A program made the translations under genes and the position numbers. Below the pieces are notes generated by a model. It worked only from the letters and a program-made list of their open reading frames with translations, had not been told where the DNA came from and searched no databases. From Nonomuraea longispora (GTDB lineage Bacteria > Actinomycetota > Actinomycetes > Streptosporangiales > Streptosporangiaceae), in assembly GCF_004348345.1 (NCBI RefSeq), contig NZ_SMJZ01000012.1, forward strand, positions 1 through 64,000: a stretch of 64,000 bases of DNA, read 5' to 3'. Of the stretch, positions 4,347 through 32,319 are shown piece by piece (within the stretch, counting starts at the first letter, position 1; each line of letters opens with the position of its first letter).

Positions 4347-4360
4347 GATCGTCCTCTCGG

Positions 4361-5838: not shown

Positions 5839-7116
5839 ATGACGGTCAGCGCCGACATCCGATCCCAGAAGGTGCGGGTCGACATGTTCGGGAAGGATTT
5901 CCTGAACAACCCCTATCCCGACTACGTCCGGCTCAGGGAGGAGGAGCCTGTTCATTGGGACAACCGGCTGAACGGATGGGTGATCACCCGGCACAGCGAT
6001 GTGTACGCCGCCCACCTGGACCCCGAGACGTTCTCCTCCCACCGCCTGGGCGCGATGGTCTCCAACAAGGTCGGCCCCACCTCCTCGGACGAGATGAAGA
6101 GGTTCATGGACCTCGCGCCGGAGTGGATGCTCTTCCGCGATCCGCCCGACCACACCCGCATCCGCAGGCTGTTGAACCGCGAGTTCCGCGCGCGGGACAT
6201 GCGCGCGCTGCGCCCCGCGATCGAGGAGATCGCCACGGAGGTCATCCGGCGGGCGGCCGGCAAGGGTGAGTTCGACCTCGTCAAGGACTTCGCGTATCAG
6301 CTTCCCGGACGGGTGCTGGCGACGATGTACGGACTGCCGTCCGCCGAGGGCACCCGCCTGACCGACTGGTGGTACGAGATCCGGCACATGCAGCGGGTCT
6401 TCCTCGGAGCCGACCCCACCCAGGTGGCGCCGTCCGGCAGCCCGACCGCCGAGGCGTTCAGCCAGATGACGCCCTACCTGGCCGAGCTCATCGGGGACAG
6501 GCGAAGCCGGCCCAAGGACGACCTGGTCACCAGGGTGATCGCCATCGCCGAGCGGGGCGAGGAGGAGGCGCTGGGGCTCAGCGAGCAGGAGATGTTCGCG
6601 CACCTGCTGCTGTTGCCGCTGGCGTCCTTCGGCACCACGATGGACCTGATCGGCAACGGGGTCCTCGGCCTGCTCGGCCAGCGTGACCAGTGGGACCTGC
6701 TGAAGGACGAGCCCGAGCTGATCCCCTCCGCGGTGGAGGAGGTGCTGCGTTACGACGCCTCCGTGCAGCTCACGCACCGCCTGGTGACCCGTGACATCGA
6801 GGTGGCCGGACAGCCGATCGCCGGCGGAGAGCTGGTCTACCTCGTCCGCGGCGCGGCCAACCGCGACCCCGAGCGGTGGCCGGCCCCCGACCGGATCGAC
6901 GTGCGGCGCCACGACTCGGGACACGTCGGGTTCGGGGTCGGCATCCACCGCTGCCTCGGCGCCGGGCTGGCGCAGGTGATCACGGCCGCGGCGCTCAAGG
7001 TGCTGACCCAGTGCGTGCCCGGCCTGTCACCCGTGCCCGACCGGCCGCATCGGTGGAAGGCGGACACCCCGCAGTTCCGTGGCCTGGCCGAATTTCCCGT
7101 ACGGGGGGAGCGGTAG
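5839..7116 (+). CDS. Cytochrome P450 (first of two in the operon)
   Basis: A 425-residue bacterial class I P450. The haem-binding loop is FGVGIHRCLG with the cysteine thiolate at about residue 372, and the ExxR motif is EEVLRYD. The oxygen-activating I-helix reads LASFGTTMD: the usual A-G-x-E/D-T-T has lost its acidic residue (Gly in its place), which may mark altered proton delivery. DPPDHTRIRRLLNREF is the conserved C-helix region. I chose the second ATG (MTVSADIRS) because AAGGAAG lies about nine bases upstream. It heads the seven-gene operon and ends two bases before the aldehyde dehydrogenase. Candidate roles are aryl or indole oxidation; the second P450 is the better candidate for carrier-bound hydroxylation. 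Confidence 0.92.
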   Translation: MTVSADIRSQKVRVDMFGKDFLNNPYPDYVRLREEEPVHWDNRLNGWVITRHSDVYAAHLDPETFSSHRLGAMVSNKVGPTSSDEMKRFMDLAPEWMLFRDPPDHTRIRRLLNREFRARDMRALRPAIEEIATEVIRRAAGKGEFDLVKDFAYQLPGRVLATMYGLPSAEGTRLTDWWYEIRHMQRVFLGADPTQVAPSGSPTAEAFSQMTPYLAELIGDRRSRPKDDLVTRVIAIAERGEEEALGLSEQEMFAHLLLLPLASFGTTMDLIGNGVLGLLGQRDQWDLLKDEPELIPSAVEEVLRYDASVQLTHRLVTRDIEVAGQPIAGGELVYLVRGAANRDPERWPAPDRIDVRRHDSGHVGFGVGIHRCLGAGLAQVITAAALKVLTQCVPGLSPVPDRPHRWKADTPQFRGLAEFPVRGER

Positions 7117-7118
7117 CC

Positions 7119-8597
7119 ATGGGGCGGTCCGCGCAGGTCTTTCAGTCACAGTGGATCGACGGGGATTGGCGGCGATCCGACGCGACCGACGGCATCGACG
7201 TGATCGACCCGAGCGACGAGAGCCTGCTGGCCATCGTTCCCGCGGGCACGCTGGTGGACGCGCGCCGGGCCGCCCAGGGAGCACGGGCGGCCCAGCCCCG
7301 ATGGGCGGCGACCCAGCTGAAGGAGCGGATCGCGTTCGTCGAGCGGCTCGCCCGCAGGCTCTCCGAGCGGGCGGACGAGCTGGCCGAGGTCATCATCTCG
7401 GAGGTCGGCGCGCCCGCGACGGTGGCGCGGCAGGCGCAGGTCGGTCTCGCCGTCACGATGACGGCCTCCTTCGCGGATCTGGCGGCCGGATTCGCCTTCG
7501 AGCGGCGGGCGGGAAACTCGCTCGTGCTGCGCGAGCCCGCGGGAGTGGTCGCGGCCATCACCCCGTGGAACGTGCCGCTGCTGCTCACGTTGCAGAAGGT
7601 GGTCCCCGCGCTGCTGGCCGGCTGCACCGTCGTCCACAAGCCCAGCGAGCTGACGCCCCTGCACGCCTATCTGCTCGCCGAGATCACCGCCGAGTGCGGT
7701 CTGCCGCCGGGCGTCTTCAACGTCGTGGTGGGCACCGGCGAGGGCGCCGGGGCCGACCTCGTGCGCAGTCCGGACGTGGACATGGTCTCGCTGACCGGCT
7801 CGGTCCGGGCGGGCCGTCACGTCGCCACGATGGCGGCCAACCGGGTCAAGCGCGTCCATCTGGAGCTGGGCGGCAAGAACGCCAGCGTCTTGCTGGACGA
7901 CGCCGACCTGCGGCAGGGAGTGGCCGCCACCGTGGACCAGATGTGCTTCAACTCGGGGCAGGCGTGCCTGCAGTGGAGCAGGCTGCTGGTGCCCGCCGAC
8001 CGGCATGACGAGGCGGCGGAACTGGCGGCCGGTCTGGTCGGCCGGTACCGCGTGGGTGAGCCGCGCGACCCGCGCACCGACCTCGGTCCGCTCATCACCG
8101 ACCAGGCGCGCGAGCGCGTGCGCGAATACATCAGGGCCGGAGTGGCAGAGGGCGCCCGGCTGCTCGCCGGAGGCGAGGATCCGCCGGAGGGGTACGGGCG
8201 CGGGTACTACGTCCGTCCCACCGTGTTCTCCCATGTGCGGGACACCATGACCATCGCCAAGGAGGAGATCTTCGGCCCGGTGCTGTCGGTCATGCCGTAC
8301 CGGGACGAGGAAGAGGCCGTCCGGATCGCCAACAACACCCCGTACGGCCTGCACGGCGCCGTGTGGTCCGCCGACACCGGCAGGGCGCAGGACTTCGCCA
8401 GGCGGATGCGGGTCGGCCAGGTGGACATCAACGGCGGGCCGTTCAACGTCCTGGCGCCCTTCGGCGGAGTCAAGCAGTCGGGCATCGGCCGTGAATGCGG
8501 CGTGGAGGGGCTGGAGGAGTTCTGCGAGACCAAGTCGCTCCAGCTCCCGGTGGAAGTGGCGGAGCCGGTCGGGCCACGGCTGCGCGCACACGCATAG
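7119..8597 (+). CDS. NAD(P)-dependent aldehyde dehydrogenase
   Basis: A 492-residue member of the aldehyde dehydrogenase superfamily. Visible landmarks are [39 protein letters not shown], the catalytic glutamate segment [12 protein letters not shown], and [12 protein letters not shown] with the nucleophilic cysteine at about residue 283. [13 protein letters not shown] and [13 protein letters not shown] close the fold. It starts two bases after the first P450 and precedes the halogenase by 23 bases. If carrier-bound tryptophan is beta-hydroxylated and cleaved by a retro-aldol step, an indole-3-carbaldehyde would arise, and this enzyme could oxidise it to the acid. That role is inferred from the neighbours only. 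Confidence 0.92.
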
Positions 8598-8620
8598 ACC
8601 GATCCAGAAGGAGTTACCAC

Positions 8621-10219
8621 ATGTCCCACGACAACCGCGTGCGCAACATTGTCATTCTCGGCGGCGGCACGGCCGGCTGGATGACCGCATCCTACCTGAG
8701 TAAGGCATTGCAGCGGACGGTGAAGATCACTGTCCTGGAGGCGCCGACCATCCCGCGCATCGGCGTGGGCGAGGCCACCGTGCCCAATCTGCAGCGTGCC
8801 TTCTTCGACTACCTGGGGATCCCTGAAGACGAGTGGATGCGGGAGTGCAACGCCAGCTTCAAGGTGGCGGTCAAGTTCATCAACTGGCGCACCCCGGGGC
8901 CCAGCTCGCCGACACCCCAGCCACTGGGCGGGCGTACCGACCAGTTCTTCCACCCCTTCGGCCTGCTTCCGTCCGCCGACCAGATCCCGTTGTCGCACTA
9001 CTGGGTGGCCAAGACGCTGAAGGGCGAGACCGACGAGCCGTTCGACTACGCGTGCTTCAAAGAGACGGCGATCATGGACGCCAACCGGGCGCCGCGAGCG
9101 CTCGACGGCACCCCGGCGACCTATTACGCCTGGCATTTCGACGCCCAGAAGGTCGCGAACTTCCTGCGCACGTTCGCGGTGGAGAAGCAGGGCGCCGAGC
9201 ACGTCGAGGATCAGATGACCGAGGTGCTGCGGGATGAGCGCGGGTTCATCACCGCGCTGCGCACCGCCGGCGGGCGGCTGCTGGAGGGCGACCTGTTCAT
9301 CGACTGCTCCGGCTTCCGCGGCCTGCTGATCAACCAGGCGATGGAAGAGCCGTTCATCGACATGAACGACCACCTGCTGTGCGACAGCGCGGTGGCCACC
9401 GCGGTCCCGCACGACGACGCCGAACACGGCGTGGAGCCCTACACCTCCGCCATCGCGATGTCGTCGGGGTGGACGTGGCGGATCCCGATGCTCGGCCGCT
9501 TCGGCACCGGGTACGTGTACTCCAGCCAGTTCGCCACGAAGGATGAGGCGGCCGAGGAGCTCTGCCGGCTGTGGGGCCTGGACCCGGAGAACGCCCCGCT
9601 GAACCACATCCGCTTCCGGGTGGGCCGCAACCGGCGCGCCTGGGTGCGTAACTGCGTGAGCATCGGGCTGGCCTCGTGCTTCCTGGAGCCGCTGGAGTCC
9701 ACCGGGATCTACTTCGTCTACGCGGCCATCCACCAGCTGGCCAAGCACTTCCCCGACCGTACGTTCGACCCTGTGCTGATCGACAGCTTCAATCGCGAGA
9801 TCGAGGAGATGTTCGACGACACCAGGGACTTCATCCAGGCGCACTTCTCCCTGTCGCCGCGCACGGACACGCCGTTCTGGCGGGCGAACAAGGAACTGGA
9901 GCTGGCAGACGGGATCAAGCAGAAGATCGCCATGTACAAGGCGGGTCTTCCGATCAACCTGCCGATCACCGACGAGCGTGGCTACTACGGCAACTTCGAG
10001 GCCGAGTTCCGTAACTTCTGGACCAACGGCAGCTACTACTGCGTCTTCTCCGGCATGGGCCTGCGGCCCGACAAGCCGCTGCCTTCGCTGACGTACAAGC
10101 CCGAGGCCATCGAGGCCGCCGAGACGCTCTTCGCCAACGTCAAGCGCCACCAGAAGGAGCTCGCAACCTCGCTGCCCAGCAACTACGAGTTCCTGCGGCA
10201 CCTGCACGGGGACAGCTGA
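8621..10219 (+). CDS. FAD-dependent tryptophan 7-halogenase, RebH/PrnA type
   Basis: A 532-residue flavin-dependent halogenase. It has the FAD site [13 protein letters not shown], the halogenase motif GWTWRIP and the active-site lysine in NASFK at residue 81, equivalent to RebH Lys79. The catalytic glutamate is in PLESTG at residue 359, equivalent to RebH Glu357. Long stretches such as [13 protein letters not shown] and [10 protein letters not shown] match RebH closely from memory, so regioselective 7-chlorination of free tryptophan is the best guess; 5- and 6-halogenases are less similar. The enzyme uses FADH2, oxygen and chloride. The reductase that supplies FADH2 is encoded next, with a one-base overlap. 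AAGGAG precedes the start by about eight bases. Confidence 0.95.
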
Positions 10220-10773
10220 TGACCGCCGACGAGCTGCGGGTTCTCGACGAACCGATCGCGTCGGCGGGCGAACATCGGGCGCTGATGAGCCGGTTCCCCA
10301 CCGGGGTCGCCGTGGTCACGGCGGCGGACACCGTCGGCCGTCCGCACGGCATGACGTGCTCGTCGGTGGCCAGCGTCACCCTGTGCCCGCCGACGATCCT
10401 GGTGTGCCTGCGGGTGGGGAGCGCCACGCTGCGTGCCGTACACGAAGGCGGCGCTTTCGCGGTGAACCTGCTGGACGCGGAGGCCCGTGCCACGGCGGAG
10501 CTGTTCTCCGGGCCGGTGCCCGACCGGTTCGCCCGGGTGCGCTGGATCAGGTCGCACGCCGGGCTGCCGTGGTTGGTGGATGACGCGCTGGCGATGGCCG
10601 AGTGCCGGCTGAGCAGGGTGATCCCGGACGGTGACCACGAAGTGCTCTTCGGGCGGCTGCTGCGCGTGACCGAGAAGCCGGGGACCCCTCTCCTGTACGG
10701 CATGCGGTCCTACTCGGTGTGGCGGCCGTCATCCCTGGCCGGCTCCGCGGGGATGGAGGACATGAGCGCATGA
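10219..10773 (+). CDS. Flavin reductase (halogenase partner)
   Basis: A 184-residue flavin reductase-like split beta-barrel protein of the HpaC/RebF type. FPTGVAVVTAAD at the N-terminus, MTCSSVASVTLCPPTILVCLR, and FAVNLLDAEARATAELFSG with the following loop are characteristic. These enzymes reduce free FAD or FMN with NADH and release it to a partner oxygenase or halogenase. The start codon overlaps the halogenase stop by one base, and the stop overlaps the start of the adenylation gene by four bases. This placement makes the tryptophan halogenase the obvious client. Confidence 0.93.
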   Translation: MTADELRVLDEPIASAGEHRALMSRFPTGVAVVTAADTVGRPHGMTCSSVASVTLCPPTILVCLRVGSATLRAVHEGGAFAVNLLDAEARATAELFSGPVPDRFARVRWIRSHAGLPWLVDDALAMAECRLSRVIPDGDHEVLFGRLLRVTEKPGTPLLYGMRSYSVWRPSSLAGSAGMEDMSA

Positions 10774-12476
10774 CGACCAATACCGATGTTTCCGAGATGT
10801 TCGCTGCGCTCGACCGGTGGGCGGCCACCCGTCCGTCCGAAACCGCGGTGCACGCGCCTGACGGGACTCTCACCTTCGCGCAGCTCGCCGACCGTACGCG
10901 GACGATCGCGGGAACGCTGGCCGCGCACGGTGCCGGACCCGGCACCCAGGTGGGACTGTGCCTCGGCCGCAGCCACCTGTCGGTCGCCGCGCTGCTGGCC
11001 GTCTGGTGGACGGGGGCGACAGCCGTACCGCTGGACGAGCGGCACCCCGCCGACCGGCTCAGCTTCGTGCTGCGCGACTCCGACACCCACCTGATCCTCG
11101 GTGACGGCGTGCCCGCGGGGGCCGTCCCGCAGCGGTGCCGGGTGCTGCCGTCCGGCGCGTTGTGCGAGCCGAACCCGGCGCCGCGCCGGGCCGACCCGCA
11201 CCCCTCCAGCGTGGCGTACGTCATCTACACCTCGGGCACGACCGGCTGGCCGAAGGGAGTCGAGGTGCCCTACCGGGGGCTGGGGGCCTTCGTCGCCGCG
11301 CTGGGCGAGTTGGACCTGCCCACGGGCGGCACGGGCGTCAACGCGGTGTCCCCGGCCTTCGACGGCTGGCTGTGGTGCGCGCTGCTGTACCTCCGGTACG
11401 GCCAGGGCATGACGATCATCGACACCGACCTGGCCGAGAACGTCGCCGCCGCGGCGCCCGACGTGGTGTGCATGACGCCTTCGCTGCTGCTGGCCTGCGC
11501 GGAGGAGGTCGGAGGGGCCGACGTGCTGGTGGCGGCGGGGGAGCCGCTCCCCGCCGCACTGGCTGCCCGGTTCACCGGCAGGATGCTCAACGTCTACGGG
11601 CCGACGGAGGCGACCATCGCGGCCACCTGCGCCGACACGGCGAGGGGCGACGACGTCACGACCATCGGGCGGCCCCTTCCCGGCTACACCGTCCACATCC
11701 TGGACGCTGATCTGCGGCCCGTTCCCCCCGGCACCCCGGGGGAGCTGTTCATCGGCGGGCCCGGCGTGGCGGCGGGCTACCGCCGCCGTCCGGGGCTGAC
11801 CGCCGAGCGGTTCCTCCCCGACCCGTTCGCCGCCGACGGCAGCCGGCTGTACCGCACGGGCGACCTCGCGCTGGAACGCCCTGACGGCCTGCTGGAGTAC
11901 CGCGGGCGCTGCGACGAGCAGGTGAAGATCCGCGGCTTCCGCGTGGAGCTGTCCGAGGTGGAGCGGGTCGCGGTGCAGACCGACGGCGTGCGCGGCGCCG
12001 CCGCCTACCTGCTGGCCGGCCGGGACGCGCTCGGGCTCGCCGTGGTGGTGGAGTCGGAGGAGTGCCTGGAGGCGGTGCGTACGGCATGCGCCGGGCGGCT
12101 GCCGGCGGCTGTGGTCCCGGCCCAGGTGACGGCGGTCCCGGCGCTGCCCACCACCCCCACGGGCAAGGTGGATCGCGCGGCACTCGCCATGATGACGGCC
12201 GCCACGGCGACCGGCGGACGGTCACCGAGCACGCGTAGCGAGCGTGTGGTCTGCGACGCCTGGAACGATCTGCTGCCGCAGCCGGTGCACGACGTCGACG
12301 CCGACTTCTTCGAGCTGGGCGGCCACTCGCTGCTGGCTGCGCGCGCCGTGGCGGCTCTGCGCAGGTCGACGGGGGTACGGCTCACGGTCAGGCAACTGCT
12401 GGCCAACCCCACGGTGGCGGGTCTCGCCGCCGAGCTGGACCGGCTGGGCTGGGTTCCCGCGGAGGAGGTGTCGTGA
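10770..12476 (+). CDS. Stand-alone NRPS adenylation-peptidyl carrier didomain
   Basis: A 568-residue A-PCP protein with no condensation or thioesterase domain. Core motifs are VIYTSGTTGWPKGVE (A3), NVYGPTEATIAAT (A5), YRTGDLA (A7), the A8 segment RCDEQVKIRGFRVELSEVE, and the lysine of TPTGKVDRAAL (A10). The carrier domain has DADFFELGGHSLLAAR with the phosphopantetheine serine. Aligning by eye to PheA gives a pocket code near D-G-W-C-V-A-V-I-A-K, which starts with the Asp that binds an alpha-amino group. A hydrophobic aromatic substrate such as (chloro)tryptophan is plausible but not proven. Such didomains hold an amino acid for P450 beta-hydroxylation (novobiocin NovH, quinoxaline-acid pathways). 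The thioesterase and second P450 that follow fit this scheme. Confidence 0.93.
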   Translation: MTTNTDVSEMFAALDRWAATRPSETAVHAPDGTLTFAQLADRTRTIAGTLAAHGAGPGTQVGLCLGRSHLSVAALLAVWWTGATAVPLDERHPADRLSFVLRDSDTHLILGDGVPAGAVPQRCRVLPSGALCEPNPAPRRADPHPSSVAYVIYTSGTTGWPKGVEVPYRGLGAFVAALGELDLPTGGTGVNAVSPAFDGWLWCALLYLRYGQGMTIIDTDLAENVAAAAPDVVCMTPSLLLACAEEVGGADVLVAAGEPLPAALAARFTGRMLNVYGPTEATIAATCADTARGDDVTTIGRPLPGYTVHILDADLRPVPPGTPGELFIGGPGVAAGYRRRPGLTAERFLPDPFAADGSRLYRTGDLALERPDGLLEYRGRCDEQVKIRGFRVELSEVERVAVQTDGVRGAAAYLLAGRDALGLAVVVESEECLEAVRTACAGRLPAAVVPAQVTAVPALPTTPTGKVDRAALAMMTAATATGGRSPSTRSERVVCDAWNDLLPQPVHDVDADFFELGGHSLLAARAVAALRRSTGVRLTVRQLLANPTVAGLAAELDRLGWVPAEEVS

Positions 12477-13204
12477 GCGGATCCTGGCTCCTGCCGTTCG
12501 ATGCGGGGCCGCCGCGGCCGGTGACCCTGCTGTGCCTGGCCCCCGCGGGGGCCGGCTGCGGGCAGTACCGTCCGTGGCAGGCCATGGCGGGGCCGGAGGT
12601 CTCCGTCGTCGGGGTCCAGCTTCCCGGCCGGGAGACCCGCTGGGCGGAGCCCCCCGCGACCAGCGTGCACGAGGTCGTCACCGGGGTGCTCGACGAGCTG
12701 ACCGCGCTGCTCAAGCCGGACGACCCGCTGATCGTCTTCGGCCAGAGCTTCGGCGGCCTGCTGGGCTACGAGATCGTCCGCAGGCTGGGGGAGGAGCACG
12801 GGCGCCGGCCCCGCGCGCTCGTCGTGGCCGGCTGCCGCCCACCCCACATGTGGGTCGGCGCCGGCCGGGGCCTGGCCGACGACGACGCCGAGCTGGCCCG
12901 GCTGCTCGACGTGCGCGCCCTGGACGAGAACGACATCGACGAGGACAGCCGCGAGCTGCTGCTCGACGTCCTGCGGCAGGACGCGCGGCTGTCGCTCACC
13001 TACACCCATCACGCGGCGGCCACCCCGGCCACGCTCGAGGCGTGGGGCGGCCAGGCCGACGAGACCGTCACGTCCGGTCATCTCGACGGCTGGCGCGCCT
13101 ACGCGGGAGGCGGGTTCCGCAAACGGATGTTTCCCGGCGGACACTACTTCTGCCTTGAGCGGGCGGGCGACGTGGTCGCCGCGCTGAGGCGGCACTGGAG
13201 CTGA
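12473..13204 (+). CDS. Type II thioesterase
   Basis: A 243-residue alpha/beta hydrolase of the external (type II) thioesterase family. The nucleophile elbow is GQSFGG, LPGRETRWAEPP forms the conserved substrate loop, and the catalytic histidine is in FPGGHYFCLE near the C-terminus. The GTG start overlaps the A-PCP stop by four bases, which implies coupled synthesis. Type II thioesterases usually clear misprimed carriers. In A-PCP/P450 systems a dedicated thioesterase can instead release the beta-hydroxy amino acid from the carrier, and with no other releasing domain in the operon that is the more likely job here. Confidence 0.93.
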   Translation: MSGSWLLPFDAGPPRPVTLLCLAPAGAGCGQYRPWQAMAGPEVSVVGVQLPGRETRWAEPPATSVHEVVTGVLDELTALLKPDDPLIVFGQSFGGLLGYEIVRRLGEEHGRRPRALVVAGCRPPHMWVGAGRGLADDDAELARLLDVRALDENDIDEDSRELLLDVLRQDARLSLTYTHHAAATPATLEAWGGQADETVTSGHLDGWRAYAGGGFRKRMFPGGHYFCLERAGDVVAALRRHWS

Positions 13205-13206
13205 CC

Positions 13207-14394
13207 ATGCAGGTGAATCTCAAAGACCCCGAGCTGTTCGGCCGGGGCAGGTTCTGGCCGGTGCTGGCGTGGCTGAGGCAGCACGACCCGGTGCACTGGC
13301 ACGAGGAGGACGACGGCCCCGGGTTCTGGGCGGTGACCCGCTACCACGACATCGTGGGGGTGTACACCGACCAGAAGTCCTTCAGCTCCCGTTACGGGAT
13401 GCGCCTGGACAGCGACCCCGGAGCGGTGTCGGCCGTCGCCCAGCGCATGCTGATCGTCTCCGATCCGCCCGATCACACCCATCTGAAGAGCGTGCTGGCC
13501 AAGGAGTTCGGCCACGCCGAGGTGCCGCGGCTGCAGGCGCTGGTCGAGCAGGTCGTGCGTGCCGTCGTGCGGGACGCGGTGTCCCGGGGCGAGGTCGAGT
13601 TCCTCGACATGGCCAAGCAGATCCCCAACAACGTGGTGTGCGCGTTGATGGGGATCCCGCGCAGCGAATGGGAGTGGGTGGGCGCGGTGACCACCGAGGC
13701 GTTCGAGGGAGACGACGAGGCGACGCGCGCGGGAGCCCACAGCGAGATCTTCCTCTTCTTCACCGAACTGCTCGCCGAGCGGAGGCGGAACCCGGGTGCC
13801 GACTTCGTCAGCCGCATCGCCGCCGAGCGCCGGACCACCGGCCAGGGCGAGGAGCGGCCGCTCACCGATGAGGAGATCGTGTTCAACTGCAACGGTGTGC
13901 TGGCCGGGGCGAACGAGACCACCCGGTACTCGGCCGCCGGCGGCGTACTGGCGCTCATCGAGCGGCCCGACCAGTGGGAGCTGTTGCGTACGGCGGGACC
14001 GTCGGGCGTGCCGAGCGCCGTGGAGGAGGTCCTGCGGTGGACGGTGCCCGGTGTGCACGCGCTGCGCACCGCCGTCCGGCCCACCAAGATAGGCAACGTG
14101 CGCATCGCGGTCGGGGATCGGGTGACCCTCTGGAACGTCTCGGCCAACAGGGACGAATCAGTGTTCGAGCAGGCCGACCGGTTCCGCGTCGACCGCTCAC
14201 CCAACCGGCACATCACCTTCGGCGCCGGCCGGCACCTGTGCCTGGGCGCCCGGCTGGCCCGCCTGGAGCTGAAGATCTTCTTCGAGGAGCTGATCGGCCA
14301 GGTGAGGCGGATGGAGCTGGCCGGCGAGCCGGTCTACAACGCCTCCAACTTCACCTGGGGCCTGCGGAGCCTGCCGGTACGGCTGGCTCCGTGA
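13207..14394 (+). CDS. Cytochrome P450 (likely aminoacyl-PCP hydroxylase)
   Basis: A 395-residue P450 with an intact I-helix motif LAGANETTRYS, the ExxR motif in AVEEVLRW, and haem loop FGAGRHLCLGARLAR with the thiolate at about residue 345. The N-terminus is short, in line with soluble actinobacterial P450s. It starts two bases after the thioesterase stop. The order A-PCP, thioesterase, P450 matches systems that hydroxylate the beta carbon of a carrier-bound aromatic amino acid (NovI, NikQ and quinoxaline-acid enzymes). By analogy it should act on tryptophanyl or chlorotryptophanyl-S-PCP. The classical I-helix makes it a better candidate for this than the first P450 of the operon. Confidence 0.93.
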   Translation: MQVNLKDPELFGRGRFWPVLAWLRQHDPVHWHEEDDGPGFWAVTRYHDIVGVYTDQKSFSSRYGMRLDSDPGAVSAVAQRMLIVSDPPDHTHLKSVLAKEFGHAEVPRLQALVEQVVRAVVRDAVSRGEVEFLDMAKQIPNNVVCALMGIPRSEWEWVGAVTTEAFEGDDEATRAGAHSEIFLFFTELLAERRRNPGADFVSRIAAERRTTGQGEERPLTDEEIVFNCNGVLAGANETTRYSAAGGVLALIERPDQWELLRTAGPSGVPSAVEEVLRWTVPGVHALRTAVRPTKIGNVRIAVGDRVTLWNVSANRDESVFEQADRFRVDRSPNRHITFGAGRHLCLGARLARLELKIFFEELIGQVRRMELAGEPVYNASNFTWGLRSLPVRLAP

Positions 14395-14395
14395 G

Positions 14396-14431
14396 AACAC
14401 AAGCGCCCGGCGGACGCCGGGCGCTTGTGTT
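14396..14431. terminator. Bidirectional transcription terminator hairpin
   Basis: A perfect 16-bp inverted repeat with a four-base GGAC loop. The arms run from AACACAAGCGCCCGGC to its exact complement and end in a short T run. It lies just after the stop codon of the second P450 and 18 bases before the stop of the convergent DAHP synthase gene. It can therefore end transcription of both operons. Confidence 0.9.
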
Positions 14432-14449
14432 TCCCCTCAACCGGATGGT

Positions 14450-15799
14450 TCATCTCGACTGATACAGGTCCGCTACGGTAAAGGCGAGATCGAGGCACTG
14501 CCGCCTGTTCAGCCGGGGATCACAGGTGGTCTCATAACGCCGGTGCAGATCGCCTTCCGCCAGGTCGTGCTCCCCGCCGACGCATTCGGTCACGTCCTCG
14601 CCGGTGAACTCGATGTGCAGACCCCCCGGATGCGTGCCCAGCGCGCGATGAACGGCGAAGAAGCCGTCGATCTCGTCGATGAGGTCGTCGAAGCACCGGG
14701 TCCTCAACCCGCTGGGGGAGACGAACGTGTTGTGCATGGGGTCGCACACCCACACGACCGGGGAGCCGTGTGCCGACACCGCCTCCACGATCGGGGGAAG
14801 GACGCGCCGGATCGCGTCCGCCCCCATCCTGGTGACGAACATCAGCCGTCCGGGCTCGCGCGCCGGGTTGAGCAGGCGGCTGAGCGTCACCGCGTCGGCG
14901 GGCGTGGTCTGCGGCCCCAGCTTGACGCCGATCGGGTTGCGGATGTGCCGCGCCCACTCGACGTGCGCGCCGTCGAGTTGCCGGGTGCGGTCCCCGATCC
15001 ACAGCAGATGCGCGGACAGGTCGTAGGTTCCGCCGCTGGCGGGGTCCACTCGCGACAGCGCCGCCTCGTAGTCCAACAGCAGCGCCTCGTGGCTGGACCA
15101 GAAGTCCACCGTGTGCACCTGCTCGGGATCCACCCCGCAGGCGTGCATGAATGCCAACGCGCGGTCGATCTCGGTGGCGATCCTCTCGAACCGCCTGCCC
15201 GCCGGGCTGGTGGCCACGAAATCCATGTTCCAGGCGTGGACCTGCCGCAGGGACGCGTCGCCTCCTCTGGTGAAGGCTCGGCACAGGTTCAAGGTGATCG
15301 CGCCGGCGTGGTAGGCCCGCAGGAGCCGGCGGCAGTCCGGCATGCGGGCGTCCGGGCTGAGTTCGAGGCCGTTGACCGCATCGCCGCGATAGGCGGGCAG
15401 GGTGACGTCTCCCCTGGTCTCGGTGGGCTGGGAGTGCGGTTCGGCGAACTGACCGGCCAACCTGCCGATCTTGATGACCGGCACCTGCGCCGCGTACGTG
15501 AGGACCACCGCCACCTGCAGCAGGCATGTCAGCTTGGTGGTGGTGGTGCTCTCGGTCGCCCCGGCGAACGTCTCCGCGCAGTCTCCGCCCTGCAGCACCA
15601 CCGCCTCACCCCGCTGCACGGCAGCGAGGCGGTCCTTCAGCTGGTCGCACTCACCCGGAGTCACCAGCGGAGGCAGCGACCGCAGTTCGGCGATCACCGA
15701 GTCGAAGGCCACCGGGTCCGGCCAGCCGGGCTGCTGGGCAATGGGAAGGCCCCGCCATGTCTCCGAAGAGCTCATGGCGGGGCGGATGTCGACGGTCAT
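14450..15799 (-). CDS. Class II 3-deoxy-7-phosphoheptulonate (DAHP) synthase
   Basis: A 449-residue plant-type (class II) DAHP synthase, which condenses phosphoenolpyruvate with erythrose 4-phosphate to start the shikimate pathway. Landmarks are VLQGGDCAETF, IKIGRLAGQFAEPHS, VDFWSSHEALLLDYE, WIGDRTRQLDGAHVE, PIGVKLGP and VVWVCDPMHNT. The C-terminal metal region ends IEFTGEDVTEC. The ATG overlaps the stop of the LmbU-family gene by four bases. A pathway-located copy raises chorismate supply for tryptophan, in keeping with the halogenase and the adenylation gene in the facing operon. It is not needed for housekeeping, because actinomycetes carry another copy. Confidence 0.95.
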   Translation of the reverse strand: MTVDIRPAMSSSETWRGLPIAQQPGWPDPVAFDSVIAELRSLPPLVTPGECDQLKDRLAAVQRGEAVVLQGGDCAETFAGATESTTTTKLTCLLQVAVVLTYAAQVPVIKIGRLAGQFAEPHSQPTETRGDVTLPAYRGDAVNGLELSPDARMPDCRRLLRAYHAGAITLNLCRAFTRGGDASLRQVHAWNMDFVATSPAGRRFERIATEIDRALAFMHACGVDPEQVHTVDFWSSHEALLLDYEAALSRVDPASGGTYDLSAHLLWIGDRTRQLDGAHVEWARHIRNPIGVKLGPQTTPADAVTLSRLLNPAREPGRLMFVTRMGADAIRRVLPPIVEAVSAHGSPVVWVCDPMHNTFVSPSGLRTRCFDDLIDEIDGFFAVHRALGTHPGGLHIEFTGEDVTECVGGEHDLAEGDLHRRYETTCDPRLNRRQCLDLAFTVADLYQSR

Positions 15800-16560
15800 G
15801 ACATGGAACGCCCGCCGCCGGCCACCAGGAGCGCTTCGCCGGCCTCGGCGGACGCGACGTTGCCGGGTGCGGCGGGCGTCAGGACGATCATCTCGTCGCC
15901 GGCGGGAAGGGCGAGGTTCCTCGTGCGCCGCTCGGGCAGCAGCAACAGATCGGCAACCTGGTCCAGGACCATGGTCATCCATTCGTGCAGGGTGCGCTGG
16001 GCCTCTCCGGCCGCCTGCTGCCAGCGCTCCTCCCTGGAGTGGTCGATGTGCAGCGTGACCGGGGTCTCCTGCGGGCGCACGCGGGCGCCGACACACTTGT
16101 TGCGCAGCTGGTGCCGCAGTTGGTTGCGCGACCACCGGTTCTGCTCCACCCGGTCCAGCCACTCGTCCTGCTCGTCGGGAGCCAGCGACGCCAGCTCCGC
16201 GTGGTGCTGGAAGCTGACCCTGTCACGGCGGCGGTTCATCGGGAAGCGACGCGCGACCCACGCGTAGTTCCGCAGCGTCTGGTAGTTGAGCGACGTGCCG
16301 GCGATGGCCCGCTGGTAGCGATCGGGGAACGACTTCTCACCGTAGTTGAGCCAGTCGCCGAGCCACCACGTCGACGAGTCGGTGATGAGCGCGATCTGCT
16401 TGCCCAGTCGCTCCCAGGAGGCGTACGGCATCGCCTGGGGCAACACCAGCCCGACACGCTTGGTGAGGACCGTGCTCGGCAGGCCGAGCCGGCTCGGGGC
16501 GGCCGGGGATCTGCGGGTCGGCATCGCGGCGGTCGTGCCGTTGTGCTCGTTGTGGTGCAT
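15796..16560 (-). CDS. LmbU-family transcriptional regulator
   Basis: A 254-residue protein of the LmbU/NovE/HrmB type, regulators restricted to actinomycete antibiotic clusters such as lincomycin, aminocoumarins and hormaomycin. The conserved block spans WERLGKQIALITDSSTWWLG, DWLNYGEKSFPDRY, YQTLRNYAWVARRFP, RRRDRVSFQHHAELASL, EQDEWLD and WSRNQLRHQLR, which includes the predicted DNA-binding helix. The start is the ATG preceded by GAGGG. It lies eight bases after the 82-residue gene and overlaps the DAHP synthase gene. LmbU binds palindromic operators, and two palindromes lie in the region upstream of this operon. It probably activates the pathway in this window. Confidence 0.9.
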   Translation of the reverse strand: MHHNEHNGTTAAMPTRRSPAAPSRLGLPSTVLTKRVGLVLPQAMPYASWERLGKQIALITDSSTWWLGDWLNYGEKSFPDRYQRAIAGTSLNYQTLRNYAWVARRFPMNRRRDRVSFQHHAELASLAPDEQDEWLDRVEQNRWSRNQLRHQLRNKCVGARVRPQETPVTLHIDHSREERWQQAAGEAQRTLHEWMTMVLDQVADLLLLPERRTRNLALPAGDEMIVLTPAAPGNVASAEAGEALLVAGGGRSMS

Positions 16561-16568
16561 GGCGTCCC

Positions 16569-16817
16569 TCACGCTGTGTTCCCGTGCATGACCTCGCCGG
16601 CCACCGGCTCCCAGGGGCCGTAGGCGACGGTTATGGAGCGGGCGACCACCTTGGCGTTGGCTGTGCCCATGGCCGCCATCTCGCGGTGCGCGCACTCGGC
16701 CGCTTCCCTGTCCATGCCGAAGTCCTCAACCATGGTCTGCTGCTGGTCGGTGAACATCACGGCGTATTCGAGGTAGCTGCCGATCACTTGATGGGTGGGG
16801 TCCAGAGTTTGCGTCAT
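16569..16817 (-). CDS. 82-residue protein of unknown function
   Basis: A small, probably helical protein with no signal peptide or membrane segment and one cysteine (in EAAECAHREMAAM). I do not recognise a family. The ATG is preceded by GAGGAA, and codon use follows the high-GC pattern of the neighbours. It is the first gene of the operon with the LmbU-family regulator and the DAHP synthase. Two tryptophan-free halves flank a central acidic stretch, and nothing resembles a RiPP leader and core. It could be a small regulatory or accessory protein of the pathway; the evidence is positional only. Confidence 0.6.
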   Translation of the reverse strand: MTQTLDPTHQVIGSYLEYAVMFTDQQQTMVEDFGMDREAAECAHREMAAMGTANAKVVARSITVAYGPWEPVAGEVMHGNTA

Positions 16818-17219
16818 GGTTTCCTCACTTCGTATTGACAAAGGTTTCCGCAGCGTCGGGGCACTGACACTCTCGTCCACCGGCAACCCGGGCCGTACGA
16901 GGGCCGGCGGCCCTCGCCGATGACCGCCCTACCAGGGCATCAGCCTGCCGCTCGGGGCGCGCAGGTCCATCTCGGGACGCGCTCGACGCACGCGTGCCCG
17001 TGGCCGCCTACGCCGATGGACTCTGGTCATCGCATTTCCTTCCATTTCCGGTTATTTCTCGATCAGAATAGAGTCGCGGCAGCGAGGGATCGACGGAATG
17101 GATCACTTGTGCGGCGTGAAGTATTCACGGCGCACTAATGAGCAGCTAACTAGGAATATCGCTCGAAGCGGCCCACGATCTGGCTGTTCAGGTTTCTTCC
17201 CCGTTCCCAAGGAGAGGTC
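16818..17219. promoter_or_regulatory. Divergent control region between LmbU operon and TOMM operon
   Basis: A 402-base gene-free region. It contains a 19-base inverted repeat with 8-bp arms, CGAGGGCC-GGC-GGCCCTCG (16898-16916), about 80 bases before the leftward operon. It also contains the 15-base palindrome CGTGAA-GTA-TTCACG (17115-17129), about 90 bases before the precursor gene. The part from about 17,030 to 17,170 is clearly richer in A and T than its surroundings, as expected for promoters. The first repeat has a GGCCGGCGGCC core that resembles the GC-rich palindromes bound by LmbU-type regulators. No open frame in the region looks coding. Confidence 0.55.
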
Positions 17220-17387
17220 ATGACCGCTTCGGTACTCCCGCGCCCCGACGTCCGGGCAGGACGCCGCTCCACCACGCTCGCCACGTGGACCAGGACGGAC
17301 CTGGAGCCGCCCGCAGCCTGGGCGGCCGACCTCGTCATCGATGACCTGGCCGACCCGGCGCGGCCCGCCTGGCCCACCTACTGCTGA
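17220..17387 (+). CDS. Putative azole-RiPP (TOMM) precursor peptide
   Basis: A 55-residue peptide encoded 11 bases before the cyclodehydratase gene. The ATG is preceded by AAGGAGAGGTC, a strong ribosome site. The N-terminal part (about 1-45) is leader-like, with an acidic stretch AADLVIDDLAD. The peptide ends in ARPAWPTYC, with its only cysteine as the last residue. Cyclodehydratases of this family act on Cys, Ser and Thr, so Cys55 (Tyr-thiazole) and possibly Thr53 (methyloxazole) are the likely targets. No alternative precursor lies nearby. The call rests on position, size, composition and the terminal residues; there is no known homologue I can name. Confidence 0.75.
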   Translation: MTASVLPRPDVRAGRRSTTLATWTRTDLEPPAAWAADLVIDDLADPARPAWPTYC

Positions 17388-17398
17388 GTGAGGCGGCC

Positions 17399-19588
17399 AT
17401 GGTGGTCAAGGCAGACCGACTGTTCCTCGGTTTCAAGCGACACCTCCGGGTGGACCCGGGGCCGGGCGGGGCGGTGTACGTGACCTCCGCGCGCGGCACG
17501 ACCGCCCTGGAAGGAACGCTGGTCCACCGGCTGGCGCCGCTGCTCGACGGCACCCGCACCGTGGCCGAGATCCGCCGGGCGATGGCGCCGTGGGCGTCGG
17601 AAGGCAGACTCGGCCACATGCTGGGGCGCCTCGCGCAGGCGAACCTCGTCGGCTTCCAGACGACCTCCAGGACCGCGGCCGACGCCTACTGGGACCTCGC
17701 CGGCATCGACGGGGCAGGGGCCGGCGCCACGTCCACGTCGGTCGCGGTCATCGGGCTCGCGGGCGCCCAGGCCGCGGCCGATGCCTGCCGGGCCGCCGGG
17801 CTGACCGTCACGCAGGACCAACGACGCGCCGACGCGTTGCTGGTGCTGTGCGCCGACTACCTCGACCCGCGGCTGGCGGAGATCAACGCACAACGGCTGG
17901 CCGACGGAAGGCCCTGGCTGCTGGCCACCGCCTGCGGACCCGACGTCTGGGTAGGCCCGGCCTTCGAGCCGGAGAATGGTCCGTGCTGGGAGTGCCTGGC
18001 GGCGCGGCTGCGCCGACGCCGCACGGGCACGCCGGGCCCGCCCGAGGCGTCGCTGGCCCCGACCCGCGCCCTCGGCATGCACCTGGCGGTCCTGGAGCTG
18101 ACGAAATGGCTGGCCGGCGCGGCAAGCGGGCTCCGCGAGCAGGTGTGGACGCTGGACACGGTGAATCTGGCGCTGTCCTGCCATCCGGTCACGAGCCGCC
18201 CGCAGTGTCCCGCGTGCGGAGACCGCGACACGACGCGCGTGAGCGTGACCCCCTCGCCCACGGCGGCGACGGGCAGCACGCCGGGCAACAGCCATCGCGC
18301 GATGCCGCTGGAAGACGTGTGGGAGCGGTACCGTCACCTGGCCGACCCGGTGACCGGCATCACCGACCCCATCCGGCCCGACCCTCGCAGCCCCCGGTTC
18401 GTCCACTGCTACCTGTCGGGCAGGAACCTCGCGCTCGACGGCGAGGAAGGAGCGGGAGTGCGGCAGTGGAGCGGCGGCAAAGGCCGCACCGACCTGGAGG
18501 CGCGGGTCAGCGCCCTCGGCGAGGCCGTGGAGCGGTACTGCGGCACCCGGCTCGGCGACGAGCAGGTCGTCCGCGGCAGCTTCCACGAACTGCGCGGAGA
18601 CGCCGTCCACCCGGACACCTGCCAGCTGTTCCACCCGCGTCAATATGCCGACCGGGTGCGCTGGAACGCGGGCGCCATGCCGTTCCAGCAGATCCCGGAA
18701 CCCTTCGACGACCGGGCGGTCATCGACTGGACCCCGGTGCGCTCGCTGACGACGGATGCCCAGCGCCTGCTGCCCACCGACCTGCTCTACTTCAACGGCG
18801 GCGCCGGCGTGCCCTCCCTCAGGGCCACCTCCAACGGCAACGCCGCGGGCGCGAGCCTCGCGGACGCGACCGTGCAGGGCTTCCTCGAACTGGTGGAACG
18901 CGACGCGGTGGCGCTGTGGTGGTACAACATGACCCGGCAACCGGTGATCGACCAGGCGTCGTTCGGGGACCCGTTCATCGCCGAGGTCTTCGACGGCTAC
19001 GCGGGTCTCAACCGCGCCCTGTGGCTGCTCGATCTCACCTCCGACCTCGGAGTGCCCGTCGTGGCGGCGATCTCGCGCCGCACCGACAAGCCGGCCCAGG
19101 ACATCATGCTCGGCTTCGGCGCCCACTTCGACGTCCGCATCGCCGTACGGCGGGCGCTCACGGAACTCGGGCAGCTGCTGTCCGCGGTGGTCGACGCCAA
19201 GGCCGACGGCACCGGGTACGCACCGGCCGACGAGCACCTCATGGCGTGGTGGCGCAACGCCACCACGGCGGACCAGCCGTACCTGCTCCCGGACCGGGAC
19301 CGGGCGCCACGACGCCTCACCGACTACCGCGAGGCCGTGCACGGTGACCTGGAAGCCGATCTCGACACCATGCACGCCATCGCCGAGCGGCACGACCTGG
19401 ACGTTCTCCTGCTCGACCAGACCAGGCCCGACGTCGGCATGCCGGTCGTCAAGGTGACCGTGCCCGGCCTGCGGCACTTCTGGGCCCGCTTCGCCCCGGG
19501 CCGGCTGTACGACGTCCCCGTCCGGCTGGGGCGGCTGCGCCGCCCCACCGCCTACCGGGATCTCAACCCCACCCCGCTCTTCCTCTAG
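17399..19588 (+). CDS. Fused TOMM cyclodehydratase (E1-like C domain + YcaO D domain)
   Basis: A 729-residue fusion protein. Residues 1-90 look like the winged-helix peptide-recognition part of E1-like partner proteins (LVHRLAPLLDGTRTVAEIRR). Residues 100-300 form a ThiF/E1-like domain whose zinc-binding cysteines are in CWECLAARL and QCPACGD. From about residue 350 the YcaO domain follows (GKGRTDLEARVSALGEAVERYC, SNGNAAGASLADATVQGFLELVERDAVALWW in parts). The C-terminus ends NPTPLFL, a proline-containing tail as in azole-forming YcaO proteins. The enzyme uses ATP to cyclise Cys/Ser/Thr onto the preceding amide. It lies between the precursor and SagB genes, which completes a minimal TOMM operon. 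Confidence 0.93.
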   Translation: MVVKADRLFLGFKRHLRVDPGPGGAVYVTSARGTTALEGTLVHRLAPLLDGTRTVAEIRRAMAPWASEGRLGHMLGRLAQANLVGFQTTSRTAADAYWDLAGIDGAGAGATSTSVAVIGLAGAQAAADACRAAGLTVTQDQRRADALLVLCADYLDPRLAEINAQRLADGRPWLLATACGPDVWVGPAFEPENGPCWECLAARLRRRRTGTPGPPEASLAPTRALGMHLAVLELTKWLAGAASGLREQVWTLDTVNLALSCHPVTSRPQCPACGDRDTTRVSVTPSPTAATGSTPGNSHRAMPLEDVWERYRHLADPVTGITDPIRPDPRSPRFVHCYLSGRNLALDGEEGAGVRQWSGGKGRTDLEARVSALGEAVERYCGTRLGDEQVVRGSFHELRGDAVHPDTCQLFHPRQYADRVRWNAGAMPFQQIPEPFDDRAVIDWTPVRSLTTDAQRLLPTDLLYFNGGAGVPSLRATSNGNAAGASLADATVQGFLELVERDAVALWWYNMTRQPVIDQASFGDPFIAEVFDGYAGLNRALWLLDLTSDLGVPVVAAISRRTDKPAQDIMLGFGAHFDVRIAVRRALTELGQLLSAVVDAKADGTGYAPADEHLMAWWRNATTADQPYLLPDRDRAPRRLTDYREAVHGDLEADLDTMHAIAERHDLDVLLLDQTRPDVGMPVVKVTVPGLRHFWARFAPGRLYDVPVRLGRLRRPTAYRDLNPTPLFL

Positions 19589-19606
19589 TCGCAGGAGTAA
19601 CCGATC

Positions 19607-21127
19607 ATGGCTGCCGGATTCGGGGACAAGAGACGCGACCTGCACGCGTTGTGGTCCTTTCGCGAGGACGTCCACCTCGAAGCCGCCCCCCACGGCAAGA
19701 CCCTGGTGCTGCACAGCCGCTGGGACGAGATCGAGGTGCCCCATCCGGGGCCGGCGGTGTTCGACGCGCTCCGGCGGATGAGCCTGGGACCGATTCACCT
19801 GGACAACGTCATCAGCGACGAGGCGGACCTGGCCACGCTCCATCGCCTGCTGGACCGCCTCGACCCCCTGGTGGTGCGCTCGTTGGGCGTGGATCGGGAG
19901 CAGCCGATGGTGTCGGTGGTGCCGCTCGTCCAGCGGTCGCGCCTGCGGGTGATCCCCGTGGCCGCCGACGTTCCGGTTCGCCTGTCCAGGTTCGCGGTCA
20001 TCAACACCAACGGCAGGGACTATCGGCTCGAATCACCCCTGGCACTGCATCGGGTGCTCCTGCACACCGCCGAAGCCATGAGCCTGGTCGGTCACCTGAG
20101 GCGGCCGACCAGGCCGGACGCGGTCCGTGACGCTCCACCGTACTTCTCCACCCTCGTCGCGTACCTGGCGGCGGCGGGGATGGTCGTGGGGGCGGAACGC
20201 GACGAGCCGTTTCGTCCGGTGGAGTTCGCCGAGGACACCGACGACGCGCTGATCTCATGGTCGCCGGTCAACCTGCTCTTCCACAGCCGTTCCACGCTGG
20301 GCAGGCACGACCTGGCCTTTGGGGCGACGCATCCGGTGGGGGACAGGCGTGGCATCGAACCCGTGGTCGTGCCGCCCGGAGACACCGGCCTCATCAGGCT
20401 GTACCGGCCCACCTGGGAGGCGCTGGTGGCGGTCGATCCGCCGCTCAGTGCGGCGGTGGAGGCGGCGAACGGGGCGCGCCCGGCCGCGGGACCGCTCACC
20501 GCACGGGAACTCGGCGAGCTGCTGTACCGCGCGGCCAGGGTGCGCTCGGTGAGCGGCCCACCGGGCTCGCCCGAGGAGACCAGCGATCGCCCGTACCTCA
20601 GCGTCGGCTCGCGCTACGAGCTGGAACTGTATGTCGTCGTGGGTGACTGCAACGGAATCTCGCAAGGTGTATACCGCTACGACCCGCTGAGCCACGGGCT
20701 GCGAGCTCTGCCGAGCGAAACACGCGCCGTCGTTGCCGCGCTGGAGAACGCGCGGCTGGTCGCCCAGATGCCTGACCTGCCGCCCGCTCTCGTCGTCATC
20801 ACCGCGCGGTTCCGCCGTCTGTCCTGGAAGTACAACGGGCTCAGTTACGCCATGATCCTGAAAAATGTCGGCATGCTCACCCAGACCCTGTGCCTGGTGG
20901 CTGCCGGACTGAGCCTGGGCGTATACCCGCTGGAATGCGTGGACATCGAACGGTGGGCCGACGCCCTGGGCGCGGACTGGCGGATCGAATCCAGCGTGGG
21001 CGCTCTCGTCCTCGGCAGGAAGCCGCATCCGGGGGACGACGCGGCCGTGACCGGCTGGCACGAAGTGAATGACGCGCACTGGGCCGATCTGGCGCACCGG
21101 TTGATGCCGGATGACGAGACGACCTGA
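19607..21127 (+). CDS. SagB-type FMN-dependent azoline dehydrogenase
   Basis: A 506-residue protein. The N-terminal half (1-290) is a SagB-family helper region without a known catalytic motif. The C-terminal half is a nitroreductase-fold flavoprotein: YLSVGSRYELELYVVVGDC near residue 330, then SWKYNGLSYAMILKNVGMLT and LCLVAAGLSLGVYPLECVD. It would oxidise the azoline made by the cyclodehydratase to the aromatic azole, using FMN. The KYN-Y pattern matches the conserved Lys-Tyr region of BcerB/SagB dehydrogenases. AGGAG precedes the start; the gap from the cyclodehydratase is 18 bases. A terminator-like hairpin follows the stop codon, so the operon probably ends here. Confidence 0.9.
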   Translation: MAAGFGDKRRDLHALWSFREDVHLEAAPHGKTLVLHSRWDEIEVPHPGPAVFDALRRMSLGPIHLDNVISDEADLATLHRLLDRLDPLVVRSLGVDREQPMVSVVPLVQRSRLRVIPVAADVPVRLSRFAVINTNGRDYRLESPLALHRVLLHTAEAMSLVGHLRRPTRPDAVRDAPPYFSTLVAYLAAAGMVVGAERDEPFRPVEFAEDTDDALISWSPVNLLFHSRSTLGRHDLAFGATHPVGDRRGIEPVVVPPGDTGLIRLYRPTWEALVAVDPPLSAAVEAANGARPAAGPLTARELGELLYRAARVRSVSGPPGSPEETSDRPYLSVGSRYELELYVVVGDCNGISQGVYRYDPLSHGLRALPSETRAVVAALENARLVAQMPDLPPALVVITARFRRLSWKYNGLSYAMILKNVGMLTQTLCLVAAGLSLGVYPLECVDIERWADALGADWRIESSVGALVLGRKPHPGDDAAVTGWHEVNDAHWADLAHRLMPDDETT

Positions 21128-24378: not shown

Positions 24379-24993
24379 ATGCTGGAGCTGAAGGTCCTGA
24401 TCGCCGAAGACGTGCACATGGTGCGAGGAGCGCTGGCCGCCCTGCTCGCCCTGGAACCCGACATCTCCGTGGTGGCGGAGGTGGACAGCGGTGACATGAT
24501 CGTGCCCACGGCGCTCAGGACAGGTCCCGACGTGGCCGTCATCGACATCGACCTGCCGAGAATGGACGGCCTGACCGCCGCGCAGATCCTGCACGAGAAG
24601 CTGCCGGCCTGCCGTACGCTCATCCTCACCGGGATGGGCCGGCCGGGCACCCTTCGGCGGGCGCTCGCGGTGTCGGTGTCCGGGTTCCTGCTCAAGGACG
24701 CGCCGGCCGACCAGCTCGCCGCCGCCGTCCGGGGAGTCGCGGCCGGGCGCCGCATCGTCGATCCCCAGCTCGCGTTGTCCGCCTGGGACATCGGAGAGAA
24801 CCCACTGTCCGGACGCGAGATCGAGGTTCTGCACCTGGCGTCCAAGGGGGCGGAGGCCGAGGAGATAGCGGCCACGCTCCACCTGTCGGTGGGAACGGTG
24901 CGCAACCACCTGACGAAGATCGTCACGAAGCTGAACGCCCGTAACCGCGTCGACGCCATCAGGATCGCCACCGACGCCGGCTGGATCCACTGA
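24379..24993 (+). CDS. NarL/FixJ-family response regulator
   Basis: A 204-residue two-domain regulator. The receiver domain has the acidic pair AEDVHMV at residues 9-15, the phosphoacceptor Asp56 in VIDIDLPRMDG, the switch threonine in LILTGMG and the lysine in GFLLKDAP. The C-terminal LuxR-type helix-turn-helix reads NPLSGREIEVLHLAS, then EEIAATLHLSVGTVRNHLTKIVTKLNA in pieces. It is the natural partner of the fused sensor kinase upstream. It could control the metabolite genes to the left or the one-carbon operon that begins 160 bases downstream; neither is shown directly. Confidence 0.93.
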   Translation: MLELKVLIAEDVHMVRGALAALLALEPDISVVAEVDSGDMIVPTALRTGPDVAVIDIDLPRMDGLTAAQILHEKLPACRTLILTGMGRPGTLRRALAVSVSGFLLKDAPADQLAAAVRGVAAGRRIVDPQLALSAWDIGENPLSGREIEVLHLASKGAEAEEIAATLHLSVGTVRNHLTKIVTKLNARNRVDAIRIATDAGWIH

Positions 24994-25152
24994 CGACACC
25001 TGAGCCGCCCTGTGGGTCGTCACAATGAACGGCCCCTCAGCGTTGGTGCGCGGGCCTAAGACACGCGTTGAGCGCTCTGGCAGCCTCGATCTCAGCGGTT
25101 GAACGACATTCACCGGCGTCGACGGTGAGCCGTCAGCCAGAGGGAGTTGATC

Positions 25153-31305: not shown

Positions 31306-32319
<1,014 letters not shown>

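Follow-up and report, generated by a model that had tools for sequence, protein, structure and literature searches.

The first 64,000 nucleotides of contig NZ_SMJZ01000012.1 of Nonomuraea longispora (hereafter the window; genome G000, 9.16 Mb) carry a set of chloroindole genes, including a tryptophan halogenase and an adenylation-peptidyl carrier protein didomain (A-PCP), side by side with a minimal operon for a predicted azole-containing ribosomally synthesized and post-translationally modified peptide (RiPP), and raise the question of what ties the two together. The initial annotation had offered two answers, one hybrid molecule or two independent pathways, and did not consider regulatory coupling between the sets. 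Our analysis favours separate sets and makes a hybrid molecule unlikely, and the word independent is probably too weak. We tentatively prefer the view that the two biosynthetic sets are coupled by regulation and not by chemistry: the azole cassette would switch on a LmbU-family regulator and, through it, the chloroindole genes. This proposal builds on the observed linkage, gene content, gene order, conservation and separability of the sets, on a palindrome and on divergent regulators, and would operate through predicted azole formation, sensing, operator binding and LmbU control, towards a predicted chloroindole product.

Conservation and separability of the two gene sets

The same gene set was found in the same order in Nonomuraea endophytica DSM 45385 (labels G015 and L050), at 74-91% identity, with a lower value for the precursor (55%) and with the DAHP synthase missing at the corresponding place. 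Given this conservation, the arrangement in the window is more than chance. The protein p82 (82 amino acids, aa), encoded next to the LmbU gene, occurs in three clusters of the database, one being that of the window itself and the others coming from two named Nonomuraea, and a precursor relative (P0002) together with a p82 relative (P0004), apparently from one genome, suggests a third composite locus.

The co-occurrence search proposed in the initial annotation was run on 28 loci carrying the fused YcaO gene, namely those of 13 Nonomuraea genomes with full-length matches (a second copy in G047 being excluded) and 15 from other genera, the latter drawn from about 54 matches below 1e-100 and not strictly by rank. 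Chloroindole genes adjoined YcaO in just two of them, the window and N. endophytica, and the cassette occurred without these genes in the other 26. YcaO sets lacking the halogenase in most relatives are the outcome that the initial annotation had named as refuting its hybrid idea. From the halogenase side, the best 80 of 100 confirmed loci were analysed, some of which end at contig ends. A-PCP (at least 50%), thioesterase (TE, at least 40%) and the cytochrome P450 termed here P450b (at least 55%) occurred together in 21 loci, 16 of which also had an aldehyde dehydrogenase (ALDH); this YcaO was missing from 20 of the 21, the exception being N. endophytica, one locus in those 80.

These counts bear on the idea of one molecule or of shared enzymes, in which the chloroindole acid would be joined to the azole peptide, or the AsnB-type amidotransferase and perhaps the halogenase would act on that peptide. 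In agreement with the initial annotation, the Pfam scans, which covered the window proteins except for most small open reading frames (ORFs) and a few late ones, returned no condensation domain (PF00668), and no other joining enzyme was found among the scanned proteins. Because chloroindole genes occur in so few YcaO loci and no joining enzyme was found, we hold a hybrid to be unlikely. None of the remaining 26 YcaO loci has AsnB, and the halogenase belongs with enzymes such as Thal, which act on free tryptophan. The tryptophan ahead of the core proline in both precursors, that of the window and that of N. endophytica, would suit a hybrid, but it is replaced by phenylalanine in P0002. A hybrid also draws on the adjacency of both sets in N. 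endophytica, with P0002 and P0004 hinting at a third genome, and on two loci that likewise speak against a purely regulatory tie. In Actinopolyspora biskrensis (L124, 9058-20667), another of the 80 halogenase loci, a Thal-type halogenase lies about 5-8 kb from a distant YcaO/SagB set of another family, with a flavin reductase and a decarboxylase-like gene in the same region, making this a candidate halogenated azole peptide locus. In G024 (contig C47; L047/L171) an AsnB relative (51%) stands directly beside a thiopeptide-type YcaO set that includes a pyridine synthase match, and AsnB-type enzymes thus also keep company with azole RiPPs.

The stretch between the precursor and LmbU genes

A single intergenic stretch separates the divergently oriented precursor and LmbU genes. 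In it the initial annotation had overlooked the p82 ORF, a 33-aa ORF (the micropeptide) and the palindrome GTGCGGCGTGAAGTATTCACGGCGCAC, whose distance is 85 bases to the start of the precursor and 79 bases to that of the 33-aa ORF. The palindrome belongs to a type, TGTGAA-N3-TTCACA, whose consensus was derived by eye from ten loci. With at most one mismatch, 20 matches were counted in 169 scanned loci, which overlap so that matches repeat, against a random expectation of 0.6 (mean of 10 simulations); all lay upstream of YcaO, and they correspond to 11 distinct sites in 10 genomes. With at most two mismatches the palindrome was present in 14 of 20 loci: in 12 of 18 it lay no further than 900 bases upstream of YcaO, and the window and N. 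endophytica, both at two mismatches, make up the rest. Matches were also obtained outside the ten consensus loci, with at most one mismatch in G138, G195 and G179 and at most two in G071, G131 and G109. Scanning the window with the palindrome's own letters returned a single match, which is no independent proof. The divergence of the precursor and the LmbU operon from one stretch holding a cassette-specific palindrome suggests regulatory coupling.

In 13 of 20 loci (a raw count) the gene that diverges from the precursor encodes a regulator, and five families were represented: LmbU in two loci, behind the micropeptide and p82; LysR in four, behind the micropeptide; AraC in two; SARP/BTAD in four; and a ParB-like protein in one (G109, where the assignment is our reading and Pfam gave weak HTH matches only). 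The palindrome lay between precursor and divergent regulator in 10 of these 13. Comparison of G003 with G185, which belong to different genera, showed conservation that spans LysR to the response regulator and stops beyond LysR; on the other side the comparison is limited by the G003 contig, which ends 60 bases after the response regulator. Between G021 (L044) and G178 (L146), also of different genera, the conserved part begins with AraC, takes in the response regulator and continues into GMC-type oxidoreductase genes. In both pairs, judged by sequence, cassette and divergent regulator thus move together. The C-terminal motif of the micropeptide was found, among the 169 loci, only in the G000, G015, G003, G013, G185 and G091 cassettes, using a regular expression derived from some of the very sequences later found with it. 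For p82 there was one weak sub-threshold Pfam match and no significant PDB match, and AlphaFold models were uneven (mean pLDDT of five models, 38-76).

In the switch that we propose, YcaO and SagB would form azoles from Thr and Cys of the WPTYC tail of the precursor, and the azole peptide would be the signal that the twin kinase perceives. Bound to the palindrome, the response regulator would then raise both the precursor side and the micropeptide-p82-LmbU-DAHP synthase side, and LmbU would activate the chloroindole operons.

Several observations weigh against this scheme. Besides the raw nature of the regulator count, 7 of 20 loci have no divergent regulator: G138 and G086 have a CoA-ligase-type operon, G071 has a kinase, and no regulator was identified in G037, G195, G074 and G137, G037 having a LuxR-type regulator beside SagB. 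The palindrome was missing at two mismatches in 6 of 20 loci (G210, G086, G133, G285, G074 and G137), and its consensus was scanned on the same ten loci it came from, one of which, G210, fails the two-mismatch limit. No palindrome was found near the MFS/P450a promoter in a scan of the chloroindole promoters, and control of the enzymes must therefore run through LmbU. The LmbU target motif, which we take to be CGCCGGCG, had 22 matches in the window, none of them in the MFS/P450a or LmbU/precursor intergenic stretches. Response-regulator paralogues elsewhere in Nonomuraea reach 65%, and a match of 50-65% beside YcaO is therefore by itself no proof of orthology. A DUF2461 gene beyond asnB is common to the window and N. 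endophytica (74%), so that the neighbourhood may have been inherited in place on that side. Finally, gene reading identified neither an exporter nor a protease in the cassette that could serve a secreted signal, the MFS transporter of the window belonging to the chloroindole part.

Nearly as likely as the switch is the simpler view of two independent neighbours kept together by common descent, a chloroindole amide pathway and an azole RiPP made as an end product, for example an antibiotic, with its own two-component regulator. RiPP genes are often adjoined by two-component regulators, and the separability described above (26 of 28 YcaO loci, 20 of 21 loci with A-PCP, TE and P450b) speaks for this view. 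Against it stand the cassette-specific palindrome between precursor and LmbU operon, the recurrence of divergent regulators from five families, and the content of the cassette, in which no immunity gene was identified any more than an exporter or a protease.

The predicted azole-peptide cassette and its twin kinase

The fused YcaO enzyme matches the cyanobactin-type fused cyclodehydratases LynD, TruD and MusD (442-438 bits), and the window contains the precursor, cyclodehydratase and dehydrogenase expected of a linear azol(in)e RiPP. The cassette has in common with these systems the fused leader-binding/YcaO enzyme and the SagB/ThcOx dehydrogenase. It differs from LynD, TruD and MusD by a very short tail (WPTYC), by a leader that in relatives is, on our reading, nitrile-hydratase-related, and by an attached twin kinase and response regulator in the place of any identified protease or exporter. 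The precursor tails read RPAWPTYC in the window, RPAWPTFTG in N. endophytica and RPAFPTYCAA in P0002, and in further cassettes ALPSYTG (G013), PWSYCG (G003), AMPSFG (G021) and AKWTYCG (G185 and G091). The nitrile-hydratase-type leader (DWRFAELVMRxW...) was recognized in several precursor relatives, and others have little beyond an I-E/D-D-L motif.

Kinase and response regulator accompany YcaO in most loci: a kinase match was found in 25 of 28 and a response regulator (at least 50%) in 24 of 28, one miss, G138, ending at a contig end; SagB was unmatched in 8 of 28. At 76% or above, the response regulator occurred in 6 of 54 Nonomuraea genomes, which are exactly those with a YcaO of at least 57%. 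Among 11 kinases the first phospho-acceptor histidine is kept in all and the second is lost in six, the window's among them. The first sensor half was less conserved than its own kinase half in 10 of 10 comparisons; such divergence is usual for kinases and is by itself no evidence for a peptide signal.

This composition recalls agr and nisin autoinduction, with which the cassette shares a variable modified peptide, a modifying enzyme, a membrane kinase and a regulator grouped in one unit, as well as a candidate operator that recurs in front of the peptide gene. It departs from them in its azole chemistry, in a twin kinase that often lacks the second histidine, in sensing that is putative, in a divergent output regulator that varies in family, and in having no identified exporter. 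A broader proposal, on which we are doubtful, is that actinomycetes use agr-like signalling by ribosomal azole peptides. The plug-in cassette, in which a very small and variable precursor is combined with YcaO and in most cases SagB, a twin kinase whose second half is often degenerate, a response regulator and the TGTGAA-N3-TTCACA candidate operator, would then act through an exchangeable output regulator (LmbU, LysR, AraC, SARP or ParB-like) and in the window would switch on a tambromycin-type chloroindole pathway. In the open-licence literature, judged by titles and abstract openings, we found no description of YcaO cassettes with a histidine kinase or autoinducer, and for YcaO azole products of Nonomuraea it gave a thiopeptide report only.

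Some variants of the cassette were noted separately. In G003 and G013 (L043 9937-14442, matching part of L040) it adjoins sulfate-activation and sulfotransferase genes, and since the cores contain tyrosine, one thought is that the peptide may be sulfated there. SagB is unmatched in G178, whose peptide might remain at the azoline stage, and G071 has two separate kinase genes in place of the twin kinase. The window's own genome holds a second YcaO gene on contig C125 (L002). A second Nonomuraea YcaO group (about 45%), comprising L048 (G039) and L049 (G007), has as its neighbours nitrile-hydratase-type precursors, a LanM-like protein (about 1050 aa), ABC genes and two pairs of kinase and response regulator, and may be an azole-lanthipeptide hybrid family.

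Gene content and the predicted chloroindole product

All parts named in the initial annotation were found in the window and assigned coordinates with Pfam, NCBIfam and gene reading (Table 1). The locus proved wider than first described, with AsnB, LLM and MFS genes on the left and the twin kinase and response regulator on the right. One-carbon and catabolic genes follow from 25147 on. The end of the cluster was set after the response regulator because the MetE-like protein beyond it has an N. endophytica match of no more than 31%. The one-carbon set (25147-33300) comprises an MTHFR C-terminal domain, the MetE-like protein, a SAM synthetase, a formyltransferase and a PfkB kinase. Rfam gave zero matches at gathering scores in positions 1-26000.

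Table 1. Features of the locus, with coordinates in the window, strand and basis of assignment.
Feature	Position	Strand	Basis
AsnB-type amidotransferase, N-terminal Cys (MCG), relative of hydroxyamidotransferase 7ylz	1421..3256	-	Pfam, NCBIfam, PDB (683 bits over residues 1-609)
LLM-class (F420-type) oxidoreductase	3261..4352	-	PF00296; nearest solved relatives are methylene-H4MPT reductases
MFS transporter	4361..5671	-	Pfam
Cytochrome P450a	5839..7116	+	Pfam, NCBIfam, PDB
Aldehyde dehydrogenase (ALDH)	7113..8597	+	PF00171
Tryptophan halogenase, Thal-like	8621..10219	+	Pfam, PDB
Flavin reductase	10219..10773	+	PF01613
A-PCP didomain, pocket letters DGWCVAVIAK	10770..12476	+	Pfam; pocket by motif
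Thioesterase (TE)	12473..13204	+	PF00975
Cytochrome P450b, kept beside A-PCP in tambromycin-type loci	13207..14394	+	Pfam, locus comparison
Class II DAHP synthase	14450..15820	-	Pfam, NCBIfam
LmbU-family regulator	15796..16563	-	NF038070, 221.5 bits (cut-off 125)
p82, 82-aa protein	16569..16817	-	Conserved in N. endophytica
33-aa ORF (micropeptide), C-terminus D..R[AT]PSGxxLP[YW]	16929..17030	-	Same motif in G015, G003, G013, G185 and G091 cassettes
Palindrome, candidate response-regulator operator	17109..17135	.	Locus scans
RiPP precursor, 55 aa, ends RPAWPTYC	17220..17387	+	Relatives
Fused leader-binding/YcaO cyclodehydratase	17399..19588	+	TIGR03882 and TIGR03604
SagB/ThcOx-type azoline dehydrogenase	19607..21127	+	Profile matches
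Fused twin histidine kinase, 766 aa, second unit without phospho-acceptor His	22009..24309	+	Pfam, His alignment
NarL-type response regulator	24379..24993	+	Pfam, NCBIfam

The tryptophan halogenase, first described as RebH-like, reaches 978 bits against Thal, a Trp 6-halogenase, but about 854 bits against RebH. A RebH-type (Trp-7) enzyme was set aside because Thal scores higher, the regiochemistry being predicted from sequence alone. The Thal-like enzyme would thus provide 6-chlorotryptophan, which would be loaded by A-PCP, beta-hydroxylated by P450b and released by TE. Retro-aldol cleavage, a step for which no clustered enzyme was found, would give an aldehyde that ALDH would convert into the acid and AsnB would amidate, with tailoring by P450a and LLM and export by the MFS transporter. 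The predicted product is of 6-chloroindole-3-carboxamide type. The letters of the adenylation pocket, located by motif, read DGWCVAVIAK in the window; 13 loci have DGWSVAVIAK, and L078 has DGWSFAVIAK. No report of chloroindole compounds in Nonomuraea was found in the open-licence literature.

Tambromycin carries a chlorinated indole carboxylate. The 21 loci with A-PCP, TE and P450b include Streptomyces H27-S2 (L078), where genes for a non-ribosomal peptide synthetase (NRPS) follow directly after P450b and some 16 kb hold three condensation domains, and S. virginiae (L128), where the sub-set likewise borders on NRPS genes and the three condensation domains fall within some 17 kb. Tambromycin clusters are reported in these two organisms in excerpts of PMC12451607 and PMC13273461, and tambromycin in other strains in an excerpt of PMC8466323. 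The window has in common with the tambromycin cluster the Thal-like halogenase, flavin reductase, A-PCP with near-identical pocket letters, TE, P450b and ALDH; it differs in having no NRPS (no PF00668 among scanned proteins) and in adding AsnB, LLM, MFS, P450a and LmbU. As a separate observation, another set with A-PCP, ALDH, a flavin reductase and a 39% halogenase was found in L041 (5675-19205), at a distance of about 20 kb to the cassette of G013.

Since AsnB is a full-length relative of the hydroxyamidotransferase 7ylz, its best solved relative, it could be a TsnB9-type enzyme and the product a hydroxamate instead of an amide, which we regard as improbable. One AurF-family gene exists elsewhere in the genome (contig C45), but no AurF-type (TsnB7) partner was found among the scanned cluster proteins, and AsnB relatives of 53-54% sit in four other Thal-type loci (L052, L053, L055 and L056). 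Thienodolin, moreover, is a carboxamide. Its formation, according to the title of Milbredt 2014 as cited in PMC12087186, involves an amidotransferase together with a Trp 6-halogenase, both of which have predicted counterparts in the window. The window differs by its A-PCP/TE/P450b/ALDH route, and carbon-sulfur chemistry was not identified in it. The hydroxamate alternative finds its chemical precedent in the conversion of benzoic acid into its hydroxamate by a TsnB9-type enzyme, as given in an excerpt of PMC13418202.

The chloroindole half of the locus presents a building-block sub-set of the tambromycin type that is employed apart from its NRPS. If the proposed switch is correct, some of the minimal azole-RiPP sets without exporter or protease would serve as switches instead of making end products. 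From the regulator and operator linked to a cassette one could then tell which neighbouring pathway it controls, which would offer a testable route to waking silent clusters.

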